Shown: positions 1 through 63,342 of the stretch, piece after piece
Numbering within the stretch: position 1 is the stretch's first letter
Layout of the letters: each line of letters begins with the position of its first letter
Origin: Anaerotruncus sp. G3(2012)
GTDB lineage: Bacteria; Bacillota; Clostridia; Oscillospirales; Ruminococcaceae
Reading direction: 5' to 3'
Length of the DNA: 64,000 bases
Assembly: GCF_000403395.2 (NCBI RefSeq)
Contig: NZ_KE159675.1
Span: 128,325 to 192,324, forward strand
The notes under the pieces: generated by a model
Seen by the model: the letters and a program-made list of their open reading frames with translations, nothing else
What the model was told of the DNA's origin: nothing
The model's database searches: none
Position numbers and translations under genes: made by a program

Positions 1-313
1 CCCAAAACTAAAGTTTTATTCAACTCTTTTGCTTTAGCCAGAGCTTGCCCAAAACCAAAGTTTTACTCGATTTTTTTCAAAAAATCGCGGGGTCGAGGGG
101 CGGAGCCCTCGACGCGCTCCGCAGAGCGCGGAACGCTTTATCCTGAGAAGCGCATTTTTCGGGTGAATTGCCGCCCGAAGGGCGGCAAGAGGGGGCTTTT
201 TGCAAGAGAAAAAGCCCCCTCCCGGTTTGGTGACCCGTATTAAGATTATAAACGAAAGATCGCCGCATTTCATCACGAAATACGGCGTTTTTTACCTGCG
301 ATTCTATTTTTGT
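1..313 (+). repeat. Intergenic repeat family 1, copy 1 (head + tail modules)
   Basis: This gene-free stretch is almost entirely repeat. Positions 54-123 carry the head module (AAAGTTTTACTC, then a T-rich/A-rich hairpin, then GGGGTCGAGGGGC). Positions 125-224 carry the tail module (GCGGAACGCTTTATCCTG ... GGGTGAATTGCCGC) and end in a large hairpin. Positions 1-20 look like the start of a second, truncated head. The same modules recur near 27.4, 31.1, 39.4, 48.8, 52.1 and 63.3 kb. Open frames here are not credible genes. Confidence 0.8.
190..220. terminator. Tail-module hairpin, terminator-like
   Basis: AGGGGGCTTTTT pairs with AAAAAGCCCCCT around a 7-nt loop. It lies downstream of the leftward gene ending at 314, so it can terminate that transcript. 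The same stem recurs in six other intergenic regions of the window. Confidence 0.65.
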
Positions 314-5001: not shown

Positions 5002-6177
5002 ATGGAGAAGCAAAGCGGTTCAACACAAAAATGGTATCCAAAAAATATCCGGATCATCTTATCTCTTCTGCTCTTTGTTTCTGTAGGTCTTATTTTGATG
5101 TGGGAGTGCAGCGGATGGAACCCAACGTCTAAAGCGGTCATATCAGTATTGGGGAACACGGCGGCGGACGTGCTCGGCTGGGGATTGCCTGCGTTGCTTT
5201 GGCTGTTGGCTGCAATCGGAATATTGTCCCTTCTGAAAAAGGGAAAAAGGCTGGATGGGAGCCGGTTTAAAAGGCTTTCATGCGCCGGATTGTGTGTGGC
5301 CTCCTGCTCTTTTCTGGCCTGTGCACCTGCCCCTCTGGGGGTCGAAAGGCAAGTGCCGGAACATCTGCCGGCCGCAGCAACTGTCAGTTCCCTTTCCCTA
5401 GCAGAGAGGGAATCCGGATCGCAAGCGCCCGAACCGGCCTTAACAAAGCGGTTGAATGTCAGCCAGGCAATCCTGAAAGAGATGGAGCCGGACAGGCTGT
5501 CTTTGGAACTTGCACTTTATAAAGCCGCGGAAAAAGCCAATGCTGCAAGCATAGACAAAATTGAGGTTACCGTCTCGGCAAAAGACAAATTTGCCGTTGA
5601 TACAGAGCTGGCAATTCTTCAAAACGATATGAAAGCGGCGAAATGGGCGGCGGTTACGCTCTATAACACCTTTGCAGAGATAGAGGGGTACCAGGTTTCC
5701 CTCTATACGTTTGCAGTGTCTGCCAACCAGACTCCGCTTTGGACGATCTCCAAAACAGATGATGACGAGAAATTCAGCATTGCAAGCGTGACGCAGGATG
5801 GGGCAGCAACGACGTTTACCGCGCAGGAATTGGAGCAGGAACGTGCAGGGGCTGTATCTTCCGGCCAATCGGAATCGCCTGCGCGGGAGCCTGCCGTACA
5901 GAAACAACCGGTTCCTGCTGCACCGGCCCCTGCGGTCACATCCCCGCCGGCGGACAACAGCTGGACCGCTGACCTTGATAAAAACGCATCCGACACCAAT
6001 GAGGTCACCGGGCCGTTGGATCAAACCGCTTACTGGGTACCACGCGGAAAATCCTATCATTTTTCTTCCAACTGCACCACGCTGAAACGCTCCAAAACCA
6101 TTCTGAGCGGGAGCCTACAGCAGGCGTTGTCCGCCGGAAAAGCGGACCCCTGCAACCTGTGCGCAGGAGGCAGATAA
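5002..6177 (+). CDS. Membrane-anchored protein with a C-terminal Cys-rich YHFxxNC motif
   Basis: A 391-residue protein with three hydrophobic segments in the first 110 residues (about 17-33, 50-77 and 92-107). A long variable region rich in Pro, Ala and Ser follows. The last 45 residues form a compact module: YWVPRGKSYHFSSNCTTLKR, then the final DPCNLCAGG. This module resembles the small Ada-like or nuclease-tail Cys motif found at the ends of many Clostridial surface proteins, where it probably binds a metal. Expression is from its own promoter with a good GGAGG site. A hairpin at 6188 ends the transcript. I cannot assign a function. Confidence 0.75.
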   Translation: MEKQSGSTQKWYPKNIRIILSLLLFVSVGLILMWECSGWNPTSKAVISVLGNTAADVLGWGLPALLWLLAAIGILSLLKKGKRLDGSRFKRLSCAGLCVASCSFLACAPAPLGVERQVPEHLPAAATVSSLSLAERESGSQAPEPALTKRLNVSQAILKEMEPDRLSLELALYKAAEKANAASIDKIEVTVSAKDKFAVDTELAILQNDMKAAKWAAVTLYNTFAEIEGYQVSLYTFAVSANQTPLWTISKTDDDEKFSIASVTQDGAATTFTAQELEQERAGAVSSGQSESPAREPAVQKQPVPAAPAPAVTSPPADNSWTADLDKNASDTNEVTGPLDQTAYWVPRGKSYHFSSNCTTLKRSKTILSGSLQQALSAGKADPCNLCAGGR

Positions 6178-6187
6178 CGGACAGAAT

Positions 6188-6223
6188 AAAAATACCGCCG
6201 GTTGCAAAACCGGCGGTATTTTT
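6188..6223. terminator. Bidirectional terminator between convergent genes
   Basis: A perfect 16-bp stem (AAAAATACCGCCGGTT / AACCGGCGGTATTTTT) with a GCAA tetraloop lies between the gene ending at 6177 and the leftward gene ending at 6247. Confidence 0.9.
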
Positions 6224-6246
6224 GATCGTCTGAGACCTGCAGCGGG

Positions 6247-7332
6247 TCAGAAGCTGGGGGAACGGTCCAGAAGCTCCTCGAAGATTCCGGCGAGAACATA
6301 GGGGGTATCGTCCGGGAAAATCGAATCCCCGGCCTTCATATCTCCGCCTGAGTCTTCACTAATCAGCTCCCCAAATTCGGTCAGGTTCCCATCGTTTCCG
6401 ACCTGATCGCGGACGTCAAACAGCATTTCGTCGCCCACTGAAAGCATAAGCGGCATGAACGCGCTGTCTGAAACCATGATGCAGAGAAGGAACGGCTCTT
6501 CCTCGAGCACCGAATCTTCACCGCCTGCAACCGTCCCAGGCAGGTAGATATACACCCCATCGGTATAAACATCATCCGCGAAGAGGGCCGCCTCTACCCA
6601 GCCATAGTTTTGCTGGAGGACTGCTACCGTAATTGGCTGGAGAACCTCGTCAAAAAAGAGCTGGAAAGAACTGAGCGGGTCGATATACTCGGTATCCGGC
6701 TGGGATTCTTCCCAGAAGTGCTCCAGCTCCTCGGGCTGGGATCCCGCCCAGTCAGTCGCGATCTCTTCCGGAGCGGGGGCACTAGCCGCTTCCGAGTGGA
6801 GCTGTTCGTTCTCCTGCGCGTATGAGAACACCAACGACAATCCCACAGGCAGCAGAGTGAAAAAGATCATGACGATGACCACAGTAAGCAGGCATCCAAC
6901 CAGAGGAGGCTTTCTGAGCGGCTTATCCAGCTTGGACGCGGATTGATATTTTTTTCCGTGGGCAAACCGCCGGGCAGTTTCTTCATGGTAGTAGTGGCTT
7001 CCCTGAAATACGCTCTGGTCGAACTCGTCAGAGATGTCGTACCGGTCCCGGTCGGGGGCAGGCTCGTCCTTGCGGTCACGCTCCCGTTCGATCTCCTGGT
7101 TTCTCCGACGGATGGTGCAGATCGCGCAGACATCATCAATGTAGCTTCCGGGAAGTTCCTTGCCGCAGTCATGGCAGTGCTTTTTTGGCATCCCCGGACG
7201 GATGCAGTCGTCATCCGGAACAGTGGACACCGGTTCCGTGGCTTTGGGCGTCTGCTCCGGGTGTTTGATCCCACAATAACAGCAATAAAGGCTGTCCTCC
7301 GGGATTTCCCGTCCGCACTTTCTGCAAAACAT
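6247..7332 (-). CDS. Double zinc-ribbon membrane protein
   Basis: A 361-residue protein beginning MFCRKCGREIPEDSLYCCYCG, a classic zinc ribbon with four Cys in two CxxC pairs. A second ribbon follows at about residues 50-70 (CHDCG ... CAIC). A charged linker then leads to one membrane segment at about residues 145-172 (LVGCLLTVVIVMIFFTLLPV). The remaining 190 or so residues are acidic and probably outside. The start at 7332 is set by GAGG about 9 nt upstream and by the zinc ribbon starting at once. It lies 61 nt downstream of the corrinoid protein gene. Ribbon-plus-membrane proteins are common in Clostridia and mostly uncharacterised. Confidence 0.78.
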   Translation of the reverse strand: MFCRKCGREIPEDSLYCCYCGIKHPEQTPKATEPVSTVPDDDCIRPGMPKKHCHDCGKELPGSYIDDVCAICTIRRRNQEIERERDRKDEPAPDRDRYDISDEFDQSVFQGSHYYHEETARRFAHGKKYQSASKLDKPLRKPPLVGCLLTVVIVMIFFTLLPVGLSLVFSYAQENEQLHSEAASAPAPEEIATDWAGSQPEELEHFWEESQPDTEYIDPLSSFQLFFDEVLQPITVAVLQQNYGWVEAALFADDVYTDGVYIYLPGTVAGGEDSVLEEEPFLLCIMVSDSAFMPLMLSVGDEMLFDVRDQVGNDGNLTEFGELISEDSGGDMKAGDSIFPDDTPYVLAGIFEELLDRSPSF

Positions 7333-15390: not shown

Positions 15391-15556
15391 CTAGGGGCTG
15401 TTTGAAAAATCGAAATAGCCGTCTTTTTCTACAAAAAGCGGCAGCTGCCGCGTCAAAAATGCGCGGAATACAGCAAGTATTCCTGTGCTTTTTTCCTTGC
15501 AACCGCTCGCTTTTTACGAACCATCCGTCTATTTCTCTATTTTCAAACAAGCCCTA
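15391..15556 (+). repeat. MITE-like element with terminal inverted repeats (family 2, copy 1)
   Basis: The left end CTAGGGGCTGTTTGAAAA is mirrored at the right end, which reads CTAGGGCTTGTTTGAAAA on the other strand. This gives a short, gene-free element of about 166 bp. Its left 90 bp resemble, on the opposite strand, positions 39568-39658, sharing GGGCTGTTT, GAATACAGCAA and other blocks. The CTAG (or TA) at both edges may be a target duplication. No transposase is encoded. It lies in the 371-nt gap between two leftward genes. Confidence 0.65.
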
Positions 15557-25861: not shown

Positions 25862-27235
25862 ATGAAACATCTTGGAATCGAAATTGACGTCAGAAACCTG
25901 CCGGAGCTGGACCAGGAATTCCTGCCGCTCTACAAATTCAATACCGCTTTTTTGAAAACGGCGAAAAAGCCGGTGAGCGTAGCGGTGGAACGCGCGGGCG
26001 GGCAGATGGCAACCTATCACACATTTATCCACGGGACCCCGGAGATGGCCGAAGCCGACCGCTACTATATCGACCGGCTGATTAAGACTGTCTTGTGGAT
26101 GAAGGGCGGCTTCAAAATCTACATCAGTGGGGACGACGGCATCTGCGAGCAGATGAAGCAGGCGTATGCGCCCGGCGGCAGCCGCGCATTTGATGCGGAT
26201 TTCATGGCGAACGTCTATGAACGCCCGTTTGAGGTGGTGGCCTGCGGTCAGGCGCCTGAGGAGAAGAGCGAATCCAAGCCGGTCGGACGGCATCTGGAGG
26301 GCTGCCGGATCGGGTTTGACGCGGGCGGCAGCGACCGCAAGGTTTCGGCGGTCATCGACGGAGAGCCGGTATTCAGCGAGGAAGTCGTCTGGTTCCCTAA
26401 GACCAATTCGGACCCCGACTACCATTTCGAGGGGATCGTCTCGGCGATGAAGGCCGCAGCGGAGCATATGCCGCGGGTGGATGCGATCGGTGTCTCGTCG
26501 GCGGGCATCTATATCGACAACCGCACAATGAACGCATCCCTTTTCCTCAAGGTGCCCAAGGACCTGTTTGATGCCAAGGTCAAGGACATCTATATCCGCG
26601 CAGCCAAGGAGATCGGCGACGTGCCGGTGACTGTCTGCAACGATGGCGACGTCACCGCGCTGGCGGGCGCTATGAGCCTGAACGAAAACAATGTGCTCGG
26701 CATCGCGATGGGCACGAGTGAGGCGGTCGGCTATGTCGACCAGGATGGCAATATCACCGGATGGCTCAACGAACTGGCGTTCATGCCGGTCGACGCCAGC
26801 CCCAAGGCTATGGAGGACGAGTGGTCGGGCGACATCGGCTGCGGCGTCAAATATTTCTCCCAGGATGCGGTGATCAAACTTGCTCCCGCCGCGGGCATCC
26901 AGCTCGACGAGAGCCTCTCACCCGCAGAAAAGCTCAAAAAGGTGCAGGCGCTCATGGCGGAAGAGGGCAGCCCTGCCGAAGGCATCTATCGCTCGATCGG
27001 CGTATACCTCGGCCATTCGCTGGCATACTACCATCATCTGTACGGCTGCAAGCATGTGCTGCTGCTCGGGCGGGTCATGTCCGGGCGGGGCGGGGATATC
27101 ATCCTGGAGACCGCCAACCGGGTGCTCGCGGACGAATACCCCGAAGCTGCCAAGGAGATCAAAGCCGCGCTGCCGGATGAGAAGGCACGCCGGGTAGGGC
27201 AGTCGGTAGCCGCAGCAAGCCTGCCGGAGATGTGA
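25862..27235 (+). CDS. ROK/BadF-like sugar kinase with an N-terminal extension
   Basis: A 457-residue protein. Residues 1-145 form an N-terminal domain I do not recognise. From residue 150 an actin-like kinase fold starts with GFDAGGSDRKVSAVIDGE (phosphate loop 1) and continues with GVSSAGIYIDN, CNDGDVTALAGAM (catalytic Asp) and GIAMGTSEAVGYVD. The usual ROK zinc motif CxCGxxGCxE is absent. In its place is EWSGDIGCGVKYFS. Given its neighbours it probably phosphorylates GlcNAc or ManNAc with ATP. GGAGG precedes the ATG. It is read divergently from the epimerase. Confidence 0.75.
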   Translation: MKHLGIEIDVRNLPELDQEFLPLYKFNTAFLKTAKKPVSVAVERAGGQMATYHTFIHGTPEMAEADRYYIDRLIKTVLWMKGGFKIYISGDDGICEQMKQAYAPGGSRAFDADFMANVYERPFEVVACGQAPEEKSESKPVGRHLEGCRIGFDAGGSDRKVSAVIDGEPVFSEEVVWFPKTNSDPDYHFEGIVSAMKAAAEHMPRVDAIGVSSAGIYIDNRTMNASLFLKVPKDLFDAKVKDIYIRAAKEIGDVPVTVCNDGDVTALAGAMSLNENNVLGIAMGTSEAVGYVDQDGNITGWLNELAFMPVDASPKAMEDEWSGDIGCGVKYFSQDAVIKLAPAAGIQLDESLSPAEKLKKVQALMAEEGSPAEGIYRSIGVYLGHSLAYYHHLYGCKHVLLLGRVMSGRGGDIILETANRVLADEYPEAAKEIKAALPDEKARRVGQSVAAASLPEM

Positions 27236-27240
27236 GGGGC

Positions 27241-27496
27241 TCTGCCCCTCAACCCCGCCACCTTTGAAAAGGTGGACGAAACTTTTGGTTTTTAAAGTTT
27301 GAAGGAAACGAAAAGCTTTACTCGGTTTTTGCTCCGGCCTAAGGGCCGGCGCTTCACGCCGGCTGGCCTATGCACGCTGCGGCGGCAGCCAAAAAATCGC
27401 GATGAGCGGAACGCCTGATCCTGTGAAGCGCATTTCTGGGTGGCTTGCCGCTGCAAGGCGGCAAGCGGGGGCTTTTTCTCTTGCCAAAAGCCCCTC
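27241..27496 (+). repeat. Intergenic repeat family 1, copy with side and tail modules
   Basis: It fills most of the 315-nt gap between the kinase gene and nagA. Positions 27245-27292 match the CCTTTGAAAAGG...CGAAAC fragment. Positions 27325-27380 are the side module (CTCCGGCCTAAGGGCCGGC...GGCTGGCCTATGC). Positions 27403-27496 are a diverged tail module ending in the shared hairpin. Confidence 0.7.
27468..27494 (+). terminator. Tail-module hairpin after the kinase gene
   Basis: GGGGCTTTTT pairs with AAAAGCCCC across a short loop. It lies between the kinase gene and nagA and would separate their transcripts. Confidence 0.6.
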
Positions 27497-30046: not shown

Positions 30047-30861
30047 CGCAGTATCAAAAAGCTGGAGAAGCCGCCGCTGCCCTCCAGGAGCGGCTGGGGA
30101 TGCAGCCGGAAATCGGGATTATTTTGGGATCGGGTCTGGGGGGAATCGCCGGCCAGATCGCGGAAAGACGGGAAATCCCTTATGGCGAGCTGCCGCATTT
30201 TGCCTGTTCGACTGCGCCTGGCCATAAAGGACAATTTGTAGCGGGGGAGTGGTCGGGCAAACGGGTGATCTGTATGCAGGGACGCCTGCATTTCTACGAG
30301 GGACACCCACTGACCGATGTGGTGTTCCCGGTGCGGGTGATGCGCCGGCTCGGGGTCGGGACATTGATCGTCACCAATGCTGCGGGCGGGGTCAATCTGG
30401 AGTATGCCGCAGGCGACCTCATGCTGATCTCGGACCACATCAACCTGATGGGAAAAAATCCGTTGGCCGGGCCGAATGAACCGGAATTTGGTCCGCGGTT
30501 CTGCGATATGAGCTATACCTACACCCCTGCATTGCGGGAGCTGGCGAAATCCGTTGCGGATGAGCTGGGGATTCCGCTGCGGGAGGGGGTCTATCTCGGG
30601 TGTTCCGGCCCAAGTTATGAAACTCCGGCCGAAATCCGGGCGTTCCGGATGCTTGGAGCGGATGCGGTGGGGATGTCCACTGTGCCCGAGGCGATCGCGG
30701 CTTCTCATTGTGGGATGCGTTTGCTGGCGTTCTCGCTGATTACCAATATGGCAGCCGGGGTACTCGACCAGCCGCTGACCGAAGAAGAGGTACTTGAAAC
30801 GGGTGAGCGGCGGGGCAAAGACCTCGAGCGCCTGCTCGCACAGGTGGTGGAACGGCTTTGA
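30043..30861 (+). CDS. punA: Purine-nucleoside phosphorylase
   Basis: A 272-residue trimeric-type PNP that splits purine nucleosides with phosphate. The phosphate loop IGIILGSGLGG is at about residues 25-35. APGHKGQFVAG, MQGRLHFYEGH, VTNAAGGVN and CSGPSYETPAEIRAF are all intact. The terminal VLETGERRGKDLE is typical. The start overlaps the stop of mtaD, so the two are coupled. Together they would take methylthioadenosine or adenosine to hypoxanthine and a pentose phosphate. Confidence 0.95.
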   Translation: MTQYQKAGEAAAALQERLGMQPEIGIILGSGLGGIAGQIAERREIPYGELPHFACSTAPGHKGQFVAGEWSGKRVICMQGRLHFYEGHPLTDVVFPVRVMRRLGVGTLIVTNAAGGVNLEYAAGDLMLISDHINLMGKNPLAGPNEPEFGPRFCDMSYTYTPALRELAKSVADELGIPLREGVYLGCSGPSYETPAEIRAFRMLGADAVGMSTVPEAIAASHCGMRLLAFSLITNMAAGVLDQPLTEEEVLETGERRGKDLERLLAQVVERL

Positions 30862-30871
30862 ACGCCTATCG

Positions 30872-31230
30872 CTTCTCGGGCTTTCAGCCCGAAGCGCGCT
30901 TACGCGCGACGCTCGGGCAGGATGCGCCTTGCGGGCGAGGGGTCAGCGGCCCCTCCCCGCAGGCCCCACCCCGACAAGCTCGGCGAATTTCTTATTTTCT
31001 CAATTTAAAGTTTTACTCAATTTTTTTCAAAAAATTGCGGGGTCGAGGGGCAGAGCCCCCGACGCGCTCCGCACTGCGAGCCGCAGCGAAGCGTTTCGAG
31101 CGCAACCCGCCGAAAGCGGGCTCTTAGCGCGAGATGAGCGCGGAACGCTTTCTCCTGTGAAGCGCTTTTTTCGGGTGAATTGCCGCAAAACGGCAAGAGG
31201 GTGCTTTTTGCAAGTGAAAAAGCACCCTGA
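30872..31230 (+). repeat. Intergenic repeat family 1, the longest complete copy
   Basis: It fills the 397-nt gap between convergent genes. Its order is a leading module (30872-31005, with TTCTCGGGCTTTCAGCCCGAAG and GGCCCCACCCCG), the head module (31006-31075), a variable middle, and the tail module (31139-31230). Positions 30961-31090 are nearly identical to 48710-48838. Confidence 0.85.
31198..31228. terminator. Tail-module hairpin between convergent genes
   Basis: AGGGTGCTTTTT pairs with AAAAAGCACCCT. The stem carries a compensatory pair change (G-C to T-A) relative to the other copies, which suggests the fold is maintained. Confidence 0.7.
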
Positions 31231-31258
31231 TTTTATGCAGTATTGTAACTGTCTGCGG

Positions 31259-37223: not shown

Positions 37224-37420
37224 TCTTCAGAACTGTCCCCCCATTCAGGCCCCGGCCGGCTACTCCATTTCCATAGGCGGGATGGGCCGTAAAAAAGGAG
37301 GAATATTTCCGTTTGGCCGACGGTGCGGCAGTGTGGAGACCTGTCGCAAGGTGTGTGGTGTTTTGCTCTCCATGCATGAAAGGATGTTCGCGGGGGCGGT
37401 ATCCTTACGGCTTGTGCTCA

Positions 37421-38542
37421 ATGGCAGATTTAAGTTTGAGAAACATCAAGAAAATTTATGACAAAAATGTCACCGCGGTCCACGAGTTCAATCTCGAGAT
37501 CGCAGACAAGGAGTTCATCGTTCTGGTAGGCCCCTCCGGATGCGGGAAATCCACCACCCTGCGTATGATCGCCGGGCTGGAGGACATCTCGGAAGGAGAT
37601 CTGCTGATCGGCGGTAAACGGGTCAACGATGTGGAGCCGAAAGACCGCGATATTGCGATGGTATTCCAGAGCTATGCGCTCTATCCTCATATGACTGTCT
37701 ATGAAAACATGGCGTTTTCTCTCAAGCTGCGCCATGTTTCCAAGGACGAGATTGACAAAAAGGTACGGGATGCGGCTGCAATCCTCGGCATTACCGAGTA
37801 TCTTGAGCGCAAACCGAAAGCGCTTTCGGGCGGTCAGCGTCAGCGTGTCGCAATCGGACGGGCGATCGTCCGCGAACCGCAGGTTTTCCTGATGGATGAG
37901 CCGCTTTCCAACCTGGATGCCAAGCTGCGCAACCAGATGCGTGCGGAGATCATCAAGCTGCGCCAGCGGATTGACACGACCTTTATCTATGTCACCCACG
38001 ACCAGACCGAAGCGATGACGCTCGGAGACCGGATTGTGATTATGCGGGACGGCTACATCATGCAGATCGGCACCCCGCAGGAGGTTTTTGACCGTCCGGC
38101 CAACATCTTTGTTGCGGGATTCATCGGCTCCCCGCAGATGAACCTGTTTAACGCCCGCCTCGAAAAAATTGGGGAAGGGTATCAGGTTTCCTGTGCGGGT
38201 GCGACCATCGCCCTGTCGGATCGGATTCAGGCGCGGCTCACCGAAAAACAGGTCGGTGAGAGGGACATTATCCTCGGCGTGCGGCCGGAACATGTCCTGC
38301 TGAAGTCTGAAAAGAGTTCCTACACCATCTCAGCAACCGTAGATGTTTCGGAGATGATGGGCAGCGAGGTTTATCTGCATGTGACCGCTGCCGGCAAGGA
38401 TGCGGTTCTGCGCATCCCCACCACCGAGCTGACCGAAGAACAGCGCGGCGGGTTCAGCTACGGTACCGAAATCCATTTCACCTTCCGCAGCGATCTGCTG
38501 CACCTCTTTGACCCGCAGACCGAAAAGAGTCTGCTGCTCTGA
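37421..38542 (+). CDS. ABC transporter ATPase, MsmX/UgpC type
   Basis: A 373-residue ATPase for sugar importers. Walker A is GPSGCGKST, the signature is LSGGQRQRVA, and Walker B is VFLMDEPLSNLD. A C-terminal regulatory OB domain of about 130 residues (LGVRPEHVLL) follows. MsmX-type ATPases serve several transporters. The canonical start MADLSLRNIKKIYD lies at 37421 but has no ribosome site. A strong AGGAGG stands 11 nt before an in-frame TTG at 37313, which would add 36 Cys-rich residues. The true start is uncertain. Confidence 0.9.
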   Translation: MADLSLRNIKKIYDKNVTAVHEFNLEIADKEFIVLVGPSGCGKSTTLRMIAGLEDISEGDLLIGGKRVNDVEPKDRDIAMVFQSYALYPHMTVYENMAFSLKLRHVSKDEIDKKVRDAAAILGITEYLERKPKALSGGQRQRVAIGRAIVREPQVFLMDEPLSNLDAKLRNQMRAEIIKLRQRIDTTFIYVTHDQTEAMTLGDRIVIMRDGYIMQIGTPQEVFDRPANIFVAGFIGSPQMNLFNARLEKIGEGYQVSCAGATIALSDRIQARLTEKQVGERDIILGVRPEHVLLKSEKSSYTISATVDVSEMMGSEVYLHVTAAGKDAVLRIPTTELTEEQRGGFSYGTEIHFTFRSDLLHLFDPQTEKSLLL

Positions 38543-39356: not shown

Positions 39357-39383
39357 GGTTTTGCTTACGGTCTGACCGCTGCT

Positions 39384-39413
39384 AGGGGGCTTTTTGCAAG
39401 GAAAAAGCCCCCT
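39384..39413 (+). terminator. Tail-module hairpin after the YhcH gene
   Basis: AGGGGGCTTTTT pairs with AAAAAGCCCCCT around 6 nt, 27 nt past the YhcH stop codon. Confidence 0.65.
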
Positions 39414-39542
39414 CTTGCCGCCCTTCGGACAGCGATTCACTCTCCAAAAGCGCAAAAGGTTCCGCGCTTTGCGAAGCCGCGGCCAAAGGCCCTGCCTTTG
39501 GAATCCGCAGCCTTTGAAAAGGCTGGCGAAACGTTTGGTTAT
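39384..39542 (-). repeat. Intergenic repeat family 1, inverted copy
   Basis: Read on the minus strand it runs from a CGTTTCGCC.GCCTTTTCAAAGGC start to the tail hairpin. It is the only clear copy in this orientation. It shares GGGCGGCAAGAGGGGGCTTTTT with the copy at 1-313. Confidence 0.65.
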
Positions 39543-44531: not shown

Positions 44532-44718
44532 GATCCTTCTTCGAAAGCAGTGTTTCGACCGCCTTTTCTCCAGCCCGGGAGCCGGCATACTGTACCGGTT
44601 GCCCTGCGCCTGCCGCAGCGGCGGAATTCCAGCCTTGAGAGTACCTTTCGGGGTTGATGCCTGGCCAGTAACCAGAAGGCGGCTGTTTGCGGGAGAAAAA
44701 ATCCCTTGGCTATTTGTG

Positions 44719-47700: not shown

Positions 47701-48491
47701 GGGTGCTGATCCCGGTGTTCCCTGGCAACAACTGCGAGTATGACACCGCGCGGGCATTCGAGCGTGCGGGCGCACAGGCGGAAATCTTCATTGTGCGCAA
47801 TCTCACTGCCGCTGACATCGAGGAGAGCGTCGCACAGTTTGCCCAGCGCATCGCGCAGAGCCAGATCATCGCGATCCCGGGCGGGTTCTCGGGCGGTGAC
47901 GAGCCGGACGGTTCTGGCAAGTTCATCACCGCATTCCTGCGCAATCCCCGGATTAAAGATGCAGTGCACGATCTGCTCAAAAACCGCGACGGCCTGATGT
48001 GCGGCATCTGCAACGGCTTCCAGGCGCTGATTAAACTCGGGCTGGTCCCGTATGGTGAGATCCGCGACATGGACGAGAGCTGCGCGACCCTGACGTTTAA
48101 CACGATCGGCCGCCACCAGTCGGGTCTGGTGCGCACCCGCGTAGCATCGAACAAATCGCCCTGGTTAGCGGGGATGCAGGTGGGGGATATCCATACGGTC
48201 GCAATCTCGCATGGGGAGGGACGGTTTGTCGCACCGCAGAGGCTGATCGACCAGCTCGCCTCGAACGGGCAGATCGCGACCCAGTATGTCGATCTCGAAG
48301 GCAGGCCGAGCCTGGATATCCGGTATAACCCCAACCATTCGTTTGACGCGGTTGAGGGGATCACCAGCCCGGACGGACGGGTATTCGGCAAGATGGCGCA
48401 TTCCGAGCGGTATGCCAACGGTACGTTCCAGAATGTGCCGGGCGAAAAGTTCCAGGATATTTTCGGGAACGCAGTCCGGTACTACCGGTAA
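44775..48491 (+). CDS. purL: Phosphoribosylformylglycinamidine synthase, single-chain
   Basis: A 1238-residue purine-synthesis enzyme that converts FGAR, glutamine and ATP to FGAM. The N-terminal PurS-like domain, two AIR-synthase-type ATP domains (for example TYWSDHCRHTTF, KNETHNHPTEIEPFGGA, GGKDSMSGSF) and the C-terminal glutaminase are all present. The glutaminase nucleophile is Cys1079 in CGICNGFQ, with SHGEGRF downstream. Clostridia often carry this long form in place of separate PurS, PurL and PurQ. The start is TTG at 44775, with AGAGG 8 nt upstream. It stands alone, away from other pur genes. Confidence 0.96.
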   Translation: MSVYRIYVEKKPEFAVEAAGVLSDLQTVLMLDCVTGVRVVNRYDVERIDKADFDNARFTIFSEPQVDCVYDELPPIAETERMFAVEYLPGQFDQRADSCAQCISLSTAKEQPVVRTARIYILSGSIPDQALEQVKHYLVNPVESRLASLEKPDTLETSYEIPTVVETLDGFTSLDTAGLAAFVTRYGLAMDTDDIAFCQSYFRDEEHRDPTITEIRMIDTYWSDHCRHTTFLTNIGKVQIDTPYIRKSFEKYLELRDRLYVKQGKDKPMCLMDLAVIGAKALKADGLLNDLDESDEINACTVKITVDVDGKDEDWLLLFKNETHNHPTEIEPFGGAATCLGGAIRDPLSGRSYVYQAMRVTGAADPTVPLSQTMAGKLPQRKIVTTAAAGYSSYGNQIGLATGHVAEVYHPGYAAKRMEIGAVLGAAPAKNVVRECPDPDDVVILLGGRTGRDGCGGATGSSKSHTMDSLESCGAEVQKGNAPIERKLQRLFRNGEATRLIRRCNDFGAGGVSVAIGELADGLEINLDAVPKKYDGLDGTELAISESQERMAVVVAPGNVDRFIQFAHEENLEATVVAKVTALPRLVMYWNGSRIVDLSRAFLNSNGAPKHTDIEIEAPKSWARPRSNAPLVQKWREMMENLNVCSQKGLVERFDSTIGAGSVLMPFGGKTQLSPAQAMVAKLPVLGGETTTCSVMGWGFNPDLSAASPYHGAINAVVESVAKVVAAGGSHTHCWLTFQEYFERTKGDPKRWGKPLSALLGALEAQLGLGIGSIGGKDSMSGSFENLDVPPTLVSFAVSTTRTDRVVSTEFKHAGNKVYIITPCFDENKVPQFDSVREVFGTVEKLIAEGKVASAWTIGYGGVCEGITKMCLGNRLGFDFSATFDDAALFEPLCGGFILESAEDLPNLPCIGTVSPEYLIHYGFDRIDLNDIQEIWEKKLQSVFPYLLKTPEKPVPEYSFAVSDRMQAKAKIAAPRVLIPVFPGNNCEYDTARAFERAGAQAEIFIVRNLTAADIEESVAQFAQRIAQSQIIAIPGGFSGGDEPDGSGKFITAFLRNPRIKDAVHDLLKNRDGLMCGICNGFQALIKLGLVPYGEIRDMDESCATLTFNTIGRHQSGLVRTRVASNKSPWLAGMQVGDIHTVAISHGEGRFVAPQRLIDQLASNGQIATQYVDLEGRPSLDIRYNPNHSFDAVEGITSPDGRVFGKMAHSERYANGTFQNVPGEKFQDIFGNAVRYYR

Positions 48492-48508
48492 TCAGCGGGT
48501 TTGAAAAA

Positions 48509-48877
48509 CGAAAGTTTTACTCAATTTTTTTCAAAAAATTGCAGGGTCGAGGGGCAGTGGGACAGCGGAAGTCTGGTTCCAGACCAGACTTCCAGGCGCA
48601 AAGCGCCTTCCTCGGGTCTTCTCGGGCTTTCAGCCCGAAGCGCGGCATACGCCGCGACGCCCCTGCGGGCTGTCTTGCGGGTTAGGGGTCAGCGACCCCT
48701 CCCCGCAGGCCCCACCCCGGCAAGCTCGGCGAATTTCTTATTTTCTCAATTTAAAGTTTTACTCAATTTTTTTCAAAAAATTGCAGGGTCGAGGGGCAGA
48801 GCCCCCGACGCGCTCCGCACTGCGAGCCGCAGCGAAGCGGCAAGAGGGGGCTTTTTTACTTGCAAAAAGCCCCCCTC
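48509..48877 (+). repeat. Intergenic repeat family 1, composite copy
   Basis: It fills most of the 443-nt gap after purL. It contains a truncated head (48509-48556), an unrelated insert with the dyad GAAGTCTGGTTCCAGACCAGACTTC, the leading module (48617-48750), a full head (48751-48820) and a shortened tail joined at GCGG (48838). Positions 48710-48838 nearly equal 30961-31090. Confidence 0.85.
48845..48876 (+). terminator. Tail-module hairpin downstream of purL
   Basis: AGGGGGCTTTTTT pairs with AAAAAGCCCCCCT around 6 nt. It precedes the next gene by about 60 nt. Confidence 0.65.
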
Positions 48878-48934
48878 GCCTCGGAAAAAGGCTTATGTGC
48901 CAAGGCCGGAAGACATAAAAGAAAGGGGTTTTTT

Positions 48935-49630
48935 ATGAGGAGAACAAAGTCCGGGCAGGTTCTTTTGGCGCTGCTTGCGGCAACAATACTCGGTGTGGCT
49001 GGATGGCTGGTCTGGCGCTGGTATCCGGTGGTTCAAGGGCTGATGGAGCCGGAAAAGATGGACGCTTTCCGGGAGCGCCTGCAATCTTTCGGCTTGATGG
49101 GGATACTCCTCCTGATCGGGGTGCAGGTTTTACAGGTCATCTCGGGCCTGATCCCGGCACTGCCGGTTCAGATCGCCGCCGGGGTCACCTATGGTGCACT
49201 GGGCGGTTTGGCGATCTGCGCCAGTGGGGTGTTTTTGGGGAGTGCGCTTGTTTTTATACTCGTCAAACGGTTCGGGCAGCCGGTGGTTGACCGGATGTTT
49301 CCTCCGGAAAAACAGCGGCGTCTCGCCTTTTTGCAGGACAGCGACCGTCTCCAAATCCTCGTTTTTATCATCTATCTGATCCCGGCCATGCCCAAAGACC
49401 TGCTGACCTATCTTGCCGCGCTCACCCCGCTCGAGCTGCCGCGGTTCCTGCTGCTGACAGTGACTGCGCGCATCCCCACCATGTTGGCGAACACCTTTGC
49501 CAGCAGTGAGCTGCTTGAGGGAAATTATCTCAGCTCGGTAATCGCGTTCTGCATCACTGGTACGCTGGGGCTGGTTTGTATGCTGTCCAGAAAACGGATG
49601 ATAGCTTGGATGCAGAAAAGCAGGAATTGA
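48935..49630 (+). CDS. TVP38/TMEM64 (DedA-like VTT domain) membrane protein
   Basis: A 231-residue membrane protein with about five to six hydrophobic segments. The core VTT motif region includes GLIPALPVQIAAGVTYGALGG near residue 75 and IPAMPKDLLTYLAALTPL near residue 150. These proteins are thought to move lipids across or within membranes. AAAGGGG lies upstream of the ATG. It is followed by the feoAB promoter, which starts at its stop codon. Confidence 0.88.
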   Translation: MRRTKSGQVLLALLAATILGVAGWLVWRWYPVVQGLMEPEKMDAFRERLQSFGLMGILLLIGVQVLQVISGLIPALPVQIAAGVTYGALGGLAICASGVFLGSALVFILVKRFGQPVVDRMFPPEKQRRLAFLQDSDRLQILVFIIYLIPAMPKDLLTYLAALTPLELPRFLLLTVTARIPTMLANTFASSELLEGNYLSSVIAFCITGTLGLVCMLSRKRMIAWMQKSRN

Positions 49631-52007: not shown

Positions 52008-52193
52008 GAGTTTAAAGTTTTACGCGATTTTTTGCTCCGGCCTAACAGCTGGCGCTTTGTGCCAGTTGGCCTATGCGCGCCGCTCTTAGCGCGAGATGAG
52101 CGCGGAACGCTTTATCCTGTGAAGCGCATTTTTCGGGTGAATTGCCGAGAAGCGGCAAGAGGGGGGCTTTTTGCAAGTGAAAAAGCCCCCCTC
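52008..52193 (+). repeat. Intergenic repeat family 1, side + tail copy
   Basis: It fills the gap between convergent feoB and mscL. A short head start (TTTAAAGTTTTACGCGATTTTTTG) leads to the side module (52026-52083), then CTCTTAGCGCGAGATGAGCGCGG, which is shared with 31130-31142, and the tail module (52098-52193). Confidence 0.8.
52160..52192. terminator. Tail-module hairpin between feoB and mscL
   Basis: AGGGGGGCTTTTT pairs with AAAAAGCCCCCCT around 7 nt. It can serve both convergent genes. Confidence 0.75.
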
Positions 52194-63170: not shown

Positions 63171-63225
63171 GGGGCTGTATGAAAAATCGAAATCACTGTT
63201 CTTTTCTAACAAAAGCAGCGTTTTG
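63171..63225 (+). repeat. Fragment of the MITE-like family 2
   Basis: AGGGGCTGTATGAAAAATCGAAAT matches the left end of the element at 15391. The right half is not recognisable. It is probably truncated by the family 1 repeat that follows. Confidence 0.5.
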
Positions 63226-63235
63226 GGCACAATCG

Positions 63236-63342
63236 CCAGTTCTCGGCGTGGGATCGTGCGGAACACTTTCTCCTGTGAAGCGCTTTGGAGGTGCCAGCCA
63301 AGTGGCGGCAAGGGGGCTTTTTCTCTTGTAAAAAGCCCCCTG
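63236..63342 (+). repeat. Intergenic repeat family 1, tail-only copy
   Basis: GCGGAACACTTTCTCCTGTGAAGCGC and GGCGGCAAGGGGGCTTTTT match the tail module. The middle is shortened. It ends at the hairpin below. Confidence 0.7.
63312..63342 (-). terminator. Tail-module hairpin after the DUF4340 gene
   Basis: AGGGGGCTTTTT pairs with AAAAAGCCCCCT around 7 nt, 17 nt beyond the stop of the leftward gene ending at 63359. Confidence 0.65.

Follow-up and report, generated by a model that had tools for sequence, protein, structure and literature searches.

A modular family of hairpin-rich intergenic repeats in Anaerotruncus sp. G3(2012) and related bacteria of its order

Intergenic gaps of Anaerotruncus sp. 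G3(2012), and of other bacteria of the same order, carry a family of modular, palindromic repeats that code for no protein. We consider it reasonably likely (a probability of about 0.6) that this is a BOX-like repeat, whose complete copies were mobilised as MITEs, then recombined, and were kept mainly in gaps next to a gene end. The family was recognised in the window (the whole 64-kb stretch of DNA analysed here), where seven intergenic gaps were found to carry common hairpin modules, using a combination of a repeat finder and direct reading.

Results

Copies in the window

Shared modules in seven gaps had been claimed by a reading made from the letters of the window alone (below, the sequence-only reading), and we located modules at all seven. 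The copies are listed here with their coordinates in the window. Head A and head B are two head types that are equivalent in their hairpins; the hairpins, unit u and the side module are described in the sections that follow.

57–220, plus strand: copy at 0.1 kb, with head A (57–90), hairpin 2 from 91, the CGCA-loop hairpin, the tail from 128 and the palindrome (187–219).
27236–27285, minus strand: head B (27253–27285) and hairpin 2 (27236–27254), directly past the gene end at 27235.
27312–27495, plus strand: copy at 27.4 kb, with head A carrying the side module (27331–27372) within the hairpin-1 loop, the tail (27406–27431) and the palindrome (27465–27495).
30859–31228, plus strand: copy at 31.1 kb, with a partial unit u (30859–30971), head A (31007–31040), hairpin 2 (31041–31059), the tail (31140–31165) and the palindrome (31196–31227).
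39381–39536, minus strand: copy at 39.4 kb, with a head B variant (about 39504–39536), hairpins 2 and 3, a tail-like part and the palindrome (39381–39412).
48511–48877, plus strand: copy at 48.8 kb (the copy cited in the sequence-only reading), with head A (48511–48544), unit u (48554–48717), a further head A (48753–48786), hairpin 2 (48787–48805) and the palindrome (48842–48874).
52014–52193, plus strand: copy at 52.1 kb, with the left arm of head A (52014–52032), the side module (52034–52075), the tail (52102–52127) and the palindrome (52158–52190).
63258–63341, plus strand: copy at 63.3 kb, with the tail (63258–63283) and the palindrome (63308–63340) only.

Full head A is present at four window sites, and head A left arms start at 27312 and 52014. 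The tail starts at 128, 27406, 31140, 52102 and 63258, and the final palindrome at 187, 27465, 31196, 39381, 48842, 52158 and 63308. At about 44575–44650 there is also a degenerate stretch that resembles the side module, opposite which the sister species has a well-kept head with a side module; this stretch is perhaps an eighth, decayed copy. Separately, the window contains a malK-I RNA motif at 37245–37426 (plus strand, 122.9 bits).

The hairpin core

The core (about 79 bases) consists of the head with hairpin 1 (loop TTCA), followed by hairpin 2 (loop AGA or AGC), hairpin 3 (loop CGCA) and then GAAA. The head begins AAAGTTTTAC, and the 42 cores that we aligned begin AAAG(T/C)TTTAC or a near variant of it. 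While the loops are constant, the stems vary yet stay complementary, and this plan is often common to heads of different genera. Considering the 149 heads with 75 readable downstream bases, 63 are followed by a perfect CGCA-loop hairpin of at least 5 pairs, as compared with 1 of 2980 shuffles; the remaining 86 have no CGCA-loop hairpin under this strict perfect-pairing rule.

In the 42-copy core alignment, 98.3% of cells pair (34–56% in slid controls) and 12 pairs change on both sides. Among 500 shuffles, none reached the observed percentage of paired cells, the number of both-side cells or the covariation score, and 2 reached the number of both-side pairs. Further pair types (25) were not above shuffles, as 478 of the 500 reached this number. 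Since a hairpin 3 with 6 pairs or more was the criterion for including a row, this choice favours pairing in helix 3; no such criterion applied to helices 1 and 2. Mispairs in hairpins 2 and 3 comprise 45 G-T and 15 A-C (both groups summed, with related copies that are not independent of each other).

The view that no named family matches these repeats held in both places where we looked. Across 4227 Rfam covariance models, the window matched only malK-I and two tRNAs, leaving the repeats unmatched at the gathering score, and five other repeat loci yielded six matches, none of them at the gathering score. No description of this hairpin family was found among the top matches of a literature search, which covered open-licence papers only and is weak evidence of absence.

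Unit u and the side module

Unit u (about 164 bp, with many hairpins) gave 77 matches, 61 of them unique, in the genus sequence that was searched. The stretch at 48509–48770 of the window folds with a z-score of −6.1. Across 29 aligned copies of the unit, 93.9% of cells pair (38–50% in slid controls), and there are 17 both-side pairs, a number reached by 0 of 500 shuffles; further pair types were again not above shuffles (363/500). Pairing fails in 13–14 rows at one pair each of helices 1 and 4 and at three pairs of helix 3, partly due to misalignment, and the mispairs are G-T in 11 and A-C in 15 cases. The unit stands in tandem with the head at a period of about 240 bp, with 0, 1 or 2 units between heads, and is also found without a head at four loci (L044 and L046–L048).

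The side module (about 60 bp) lies within the loop of hairpin 1. Nine split heads were examined, and four of these are clean loop insertions, three in forward orientation (L191, L076 and the window copy at 27312) and one inverted (L193). The others are neighbouring heads, other inserts or chance. In genome G121, an insert of about 200 bp interrupts the hairpin-1 loop of one head copy.

The final palindrome

The final hairpin has the form GGGGGCTTTTT-loop-AAAAAGCCCCC, with an A+T-rich apex and without a T-run downstream. It had been described as a terminator hairpin, a description that our scans do not support: the terminator scan of 48400–49000 returned 0 sites (shuffles average 1.6), and none of the palindrome copies listed has a T-run behind it. 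The same scan gave no terminator-like site at 6000–7000 of locus L098 either. Given the empty scan of 48400–49000, the window palindrome was rejected as a typical intrinsic terminator.

Spread across the genome and its relatives

Copies are numerous in the genome from which the window was taken (3.62 Mb). Allowing up to 3 mismatches, the 33-bp head A pattern was found 67 times and head B 40 times, and the exact palindrome 57 times, with 0 matches for each reversed control; 67 heads and 57 palindromes against none are far beyond chance. With the cited copy as the query, at least 94 local matches were obtained (40 of 175 candidates scored), and at least 109 stretches in genome contigs contain the 34-bp head exactly. 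The 80 head loci listed are from records of Anaerofilum, Candidatus Faecivivens, Gallacutalibacter, Avoscillospira, Caccousia, Anaerotruncus, Ruminococcus UBA946, Bacterium 1XD42-1, and uncultured Oscillospiraceae or Clostridia.

We counted 4–110 heads in each of eleven other genomes, which had been chosen as head carriers (ten from the exact-head listing and one, G120, via locus L153). Over these and the window's own genome, the palindrome is present in 3/12 (57, 68 and 3 copies), as is head B (40, 43 and 2 copies). Two of the genomes belong to the window's genus and also appear in the search of relatives, namely G120 (Anaerotruncus sp. S30_Bin7, the sister species, there G005) and G126 (Bacterium 1XD42-1, there G007). 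A covariance model of the core (R1) matched 49/246 relatives, own genome included, in seven families of the order. When the phylum was sampled evenly, 4/398 genomes (own included) were matched, all of the same order. Both of these searches used stricter filters, by which weak matches are lost. Within the genus, the core is patchy, with R1 matches in 7/10 other genomes (G001–G010).

Restriction of the modules to this window had been named as the outcome that would speak against a repeat family; instead, the head occurs 67 times genome-wide and R1 matches 49/246 relatives, and the search of this genome and related ones returned many copies, in gene gaps, from multiple genera of one order. The 34-bp head had no exact match in viral contigs, and window positions 31000–31235 had no match in plasmid and phage records. 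A virus, plasmid or phage origin was rejected on these grounds. Heads of Candidatus Faecivivens (L084, L090, L104, L111, L113, L115, L120, L123 and L155) have a common conserved stretch of about 50 bp directly upstream, which indicates that the family has another leading end there. The gene gaps of G121 (L231–L250) contain other kinds of hairpin repeat as well, such as those around GCGGGACACACAGGTCCCGCCCTACG.

Placement among genes

Gene calls were made with a codon model and have approximate starts. In each of three samples, all heads fall outside the called genes. The samples comprise 464 kb of the own genome with 18 heads, G121 with 22, and the named loci with 98 (the last partly overlap the G121 sample). 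The original description of a modular, mosaic, protein-free intergenic family is supported. For the named loci, 19 edge heads were dropped, and the remaining 79 are divided into 40 in convergent, 36 in tandem and 3 in divergent gaps, as compared with 51, 163 and 55 of all 269 gaps. Convergent gaps are thus enriched (p = 8e-8) and divergent gaps avoided (p = 2e-4). In tandem gaps, head orientation agrees with that of the genes in 16 cases and opposes it in 20 (p = 0.62). The G121 sample gave a significant result (10/22 convergent, 0/22 divergent), and the own-genome sample a similar trend that is not significant (4/17 and 0/17). Many heads lie no more than tens of bases from a same-strand stop codon.

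MITE-like ends

We found 15 left ends (GAACCTGTTTnnnATCT-like, with at most 5 mismatches) attached directly to a head in sequence of the own genome and of G120. Nine of these pair with an inverted right end beyond the palindrome, which gives elements of 211–690 bp, and 6/9 of the two-ended elements have identical TTA or TAA flanks (mean of 3.0 upon re-pairing, p = 0.004). For the other six left ends, a right partner is missing, and one of the six appears to be a chance match. The two-ended elements all lie outside the window, where none of the seven copies has clean ends, and the heads listed from other genera are without these inverted ends, so the evidence for MITE mobility is limited to the window's genus.

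We inspected 24 loci with IS5-type transposases (30 and 31 matches listed), and no GAACCTGTTT-type ends were among the top inverted pairs there. At 6/24, we found TAGGGCTTGTTTGAAAAAT ends, which match a further window feature:

63171–63192, plus strand: the 'leading module', left end of a separate IS5-type MITE, outside the hairpin family.

This MITE is complete at 15393–15556 (about 165 bp). Its two ends, GGGGCTGTTTGAAAAATCGAAA and TATTTTCAAACAAGCCCTA, resemble those of the 851–857-bp IS5-type elements at 6/24 of the transposase loci inspected. The leading module, which the sequence-only reading had counted among the parts of the family, was accordingly removed from it. That reading had also held that the modules would lose their standing as a repeat family if they were parts of a known transposon. 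This condition applies in part, as complete copies in the genus have transposon-type ends and identical 3-bp flanks, and the leading module is part of an IS5-type MITE; at the 24 loci inspected, no IS matched the ends of the hairpin family. Past the unit at L024, and at 1–160 of L201, another small MITE-like repeat (ends AGAACCTGTATTCATAATC and GGTTGTGAATACGGGTTCT) adjoins hairpin elements.

Comparison with the sister species

Long matches between G120 and the window are mostly 83–91% identical, with one at 76%. The 31.1 kb site in G120 has no head, unit or tail, and a similar palindrome is present; the 39.4 kb site has nothing alike; the 27.4 kb site has a short version of the head without side module or palindrome; and the 48.8 and 63.3 kb sites have different module mixes. 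For the 52.1 kb site, the flanks are on separate contigs in G120, which could reflect either a rearrangement or a break in the assembly. Near 35.4 and 57.0 kb of the window, there are elements in G120, and the window has a hairpin-2-like remnant or none.

Shuffling of modules by recombination, as had been suspected, was observed at one locus, L036 of the own genome and L153 of G120. L036 has two units and L153 has one. The block from hairpin 2 to hairpin 3 also differs, being another version common in the genus, with both arms changed together. This pattern is an exchange of a whole block rather than an accumulation of compensating mutations. As both arms were swapped at once, covariation is limited as a proof of RNA selection in this family. 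The flanks of this locus show 2 differences in about 460 bases, although the two species are mostly 83–91% identical, and the locus therefore seems to have been shared recently.

Discussion

In the reading that we favour, the core comprises the head hairpin and two constant-loop hairpins, and the add-ons of the genus are the loop-nested hairpin of about 60 bp, the unit of about 164 bp, the tail and the terminal palindrome. Complete copies would move, or have moved, as MITEs, with a putative transposase acting in trans that recognises the inverted ends and inserts the element at TTA or TAA with a 3-bp duplication. The copies would then recombine mutually, which would change the number of units and replace hairpin blocks as a whole, as seen at one locus. 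Persistence, which the distribution places mainly in gaps holding a gene end, is presumably greatest there because copies do the least harm, and the location may be due to selection against the disturbance of promoters. Any use by the host as hairpin-rich gene boundaries is putative. One point against this explanation is the near-identity of the head across the order, which is not accounted for by neutral drift of dead copies.

An RNA-level explanation was initially favoured by the heads that lie directly past stop codons: a structured RNA domain at transcript ends, transcribed past the stop codon, would protect, process or regulate the message. It is consistent with the covarying stems in both core and unit u, the fold z-score of −6.1 for 48509–48770 and the many heads within tens of bases of a same-strand stop codon. 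However, the explanation was weakened by the tandem gaps, where heads have no strand preference (16 with, 20 against), and orthologous genes are without the element in the sister species. The asymmetry of mispairs, as a test of RNA against DNA, had a mixed outcome, since G-T exceeds A-C in hairpins 2 and 3 (45 versus 15) but not in unit u (11 versus 15). In addition, further standard pair types are not above shuffles, and both arms of two hairpins were replaced jointly, so that covariation need not mean RNA selection. We consider the RNA domain unlikely, though far from negligible. About as unlikely is an undescribed hairpin-cassette system that acts across the order on the core (about 79 bases), in which a recombination or transposition protein recognising the loops places new hairpins in them, inverts hairpins there and exchanges them whole; in such a system, the arms would remain complementary while the sequence of the hairpin is replaced.

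That the copies are bidirectional transcription terminators with their surroundings, multiplied because they end convergent genes, would fit the enrichment of heads between convergent genes, the similar palindrome that the sister species keeps at the 31.1 kb site where the other modules are absent, and some G121 copies that end in a GC-rich stem and then 4–5 T. It is nonetheless improbable considering that neither 48400–49000 nor L098 6000–7000 has a terminator-like site, that the palindromes of the copies listed are without a T-run, and that copies are alike over hundreds of bases, beyond what a terminator needs. Least probable is that these are REP/BIME elements which owe their spread to a Y1 (RAYT-type) transposase. 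Small palindromes in many intergenic copies with composite structures are what such elements look like, and the own genome has one Y1 transposase. Yet Y1 matches were found in 22/49 core-positive and 76/197 core-negative genomes (Fisher p = 0.42; overlap tallied by hand, with a model that detects RAYT and other Y1 enzymes alike), and the Y1 model had no match in several genomes where 19 core matches were scored (e.g. G006, G040 and G054). The REP-RAYT reading was rejected for this lack of co-occurrence over 246 genomes.

Turning to known repeats, the excerpted text of PMC3049150 describes pneumococcal BOX, RUP and SPRITE as over-represented in convergent gaps, with MITE-like ends and duplications, clusters and mutual insertion. 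Our BOX-like reading refers to the features of BOX (Streptococcus pneumoniae) given in these excerpts, namely that it is modular and hairpin-rich, with a variable number of internal units, MITE-like ends and a place in convergent gaps. The likeness meant here is one of build and not of descent, the counterpart here being two units versus one at one locus, and the present family differs in its host group and modules, its three constant-loop hairpins, its occurrence in several families of an order and its loop-nested module. Many extragenic palindromes and mosaic composites are shared with REP/BIME and REPIN, as described in excerpts of PMC3733652, PMC2817692 and PMC3116915. Unlike REP/BIME in those excerpts, the family has no association with Y1, its head starts with AAAGTTTTAC and not GTAG or CGTC, and its units are larger. 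IS5-type MITEs are similarly short and non-coding, with inverted ends and a short duplication, and this genome has both IS5-type transposases and a neighbouring MITE whose ends match those of an IS; by contrast, the GAACCTGTTTnnnATCT ends are unmatched to an IS here, and the interior is a shuffled hairpin mosaic instead of a shortened IS. Finally, a Porphyromonas gingivalis MITE with an internal minisatellite (excerpts of PMC4596501) also has a tandem unit inside a MITE; the unit here is distinguished by its length of about 240 bp, a head of its own and its multi-hairpin fold. The general kind, small modular interspersed repeats, is known; what seems new is the order-wide constant-loop core together with the loop nesting.

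If our reading is right, an unreported repeat family fills gene gaps of many gut bacteria in one order, with a nearly invariant head kept across genera. The copies would be a natural record of how hairpin modules came to lie within loops, were inverted, and were exchanged with the two arms together, and would serve as a warning that block exchange, and not RNA selection, can be the source of covariation in repeats. They could also provide typing markers, and point to assembly breaks and rearrangements in such genomes.
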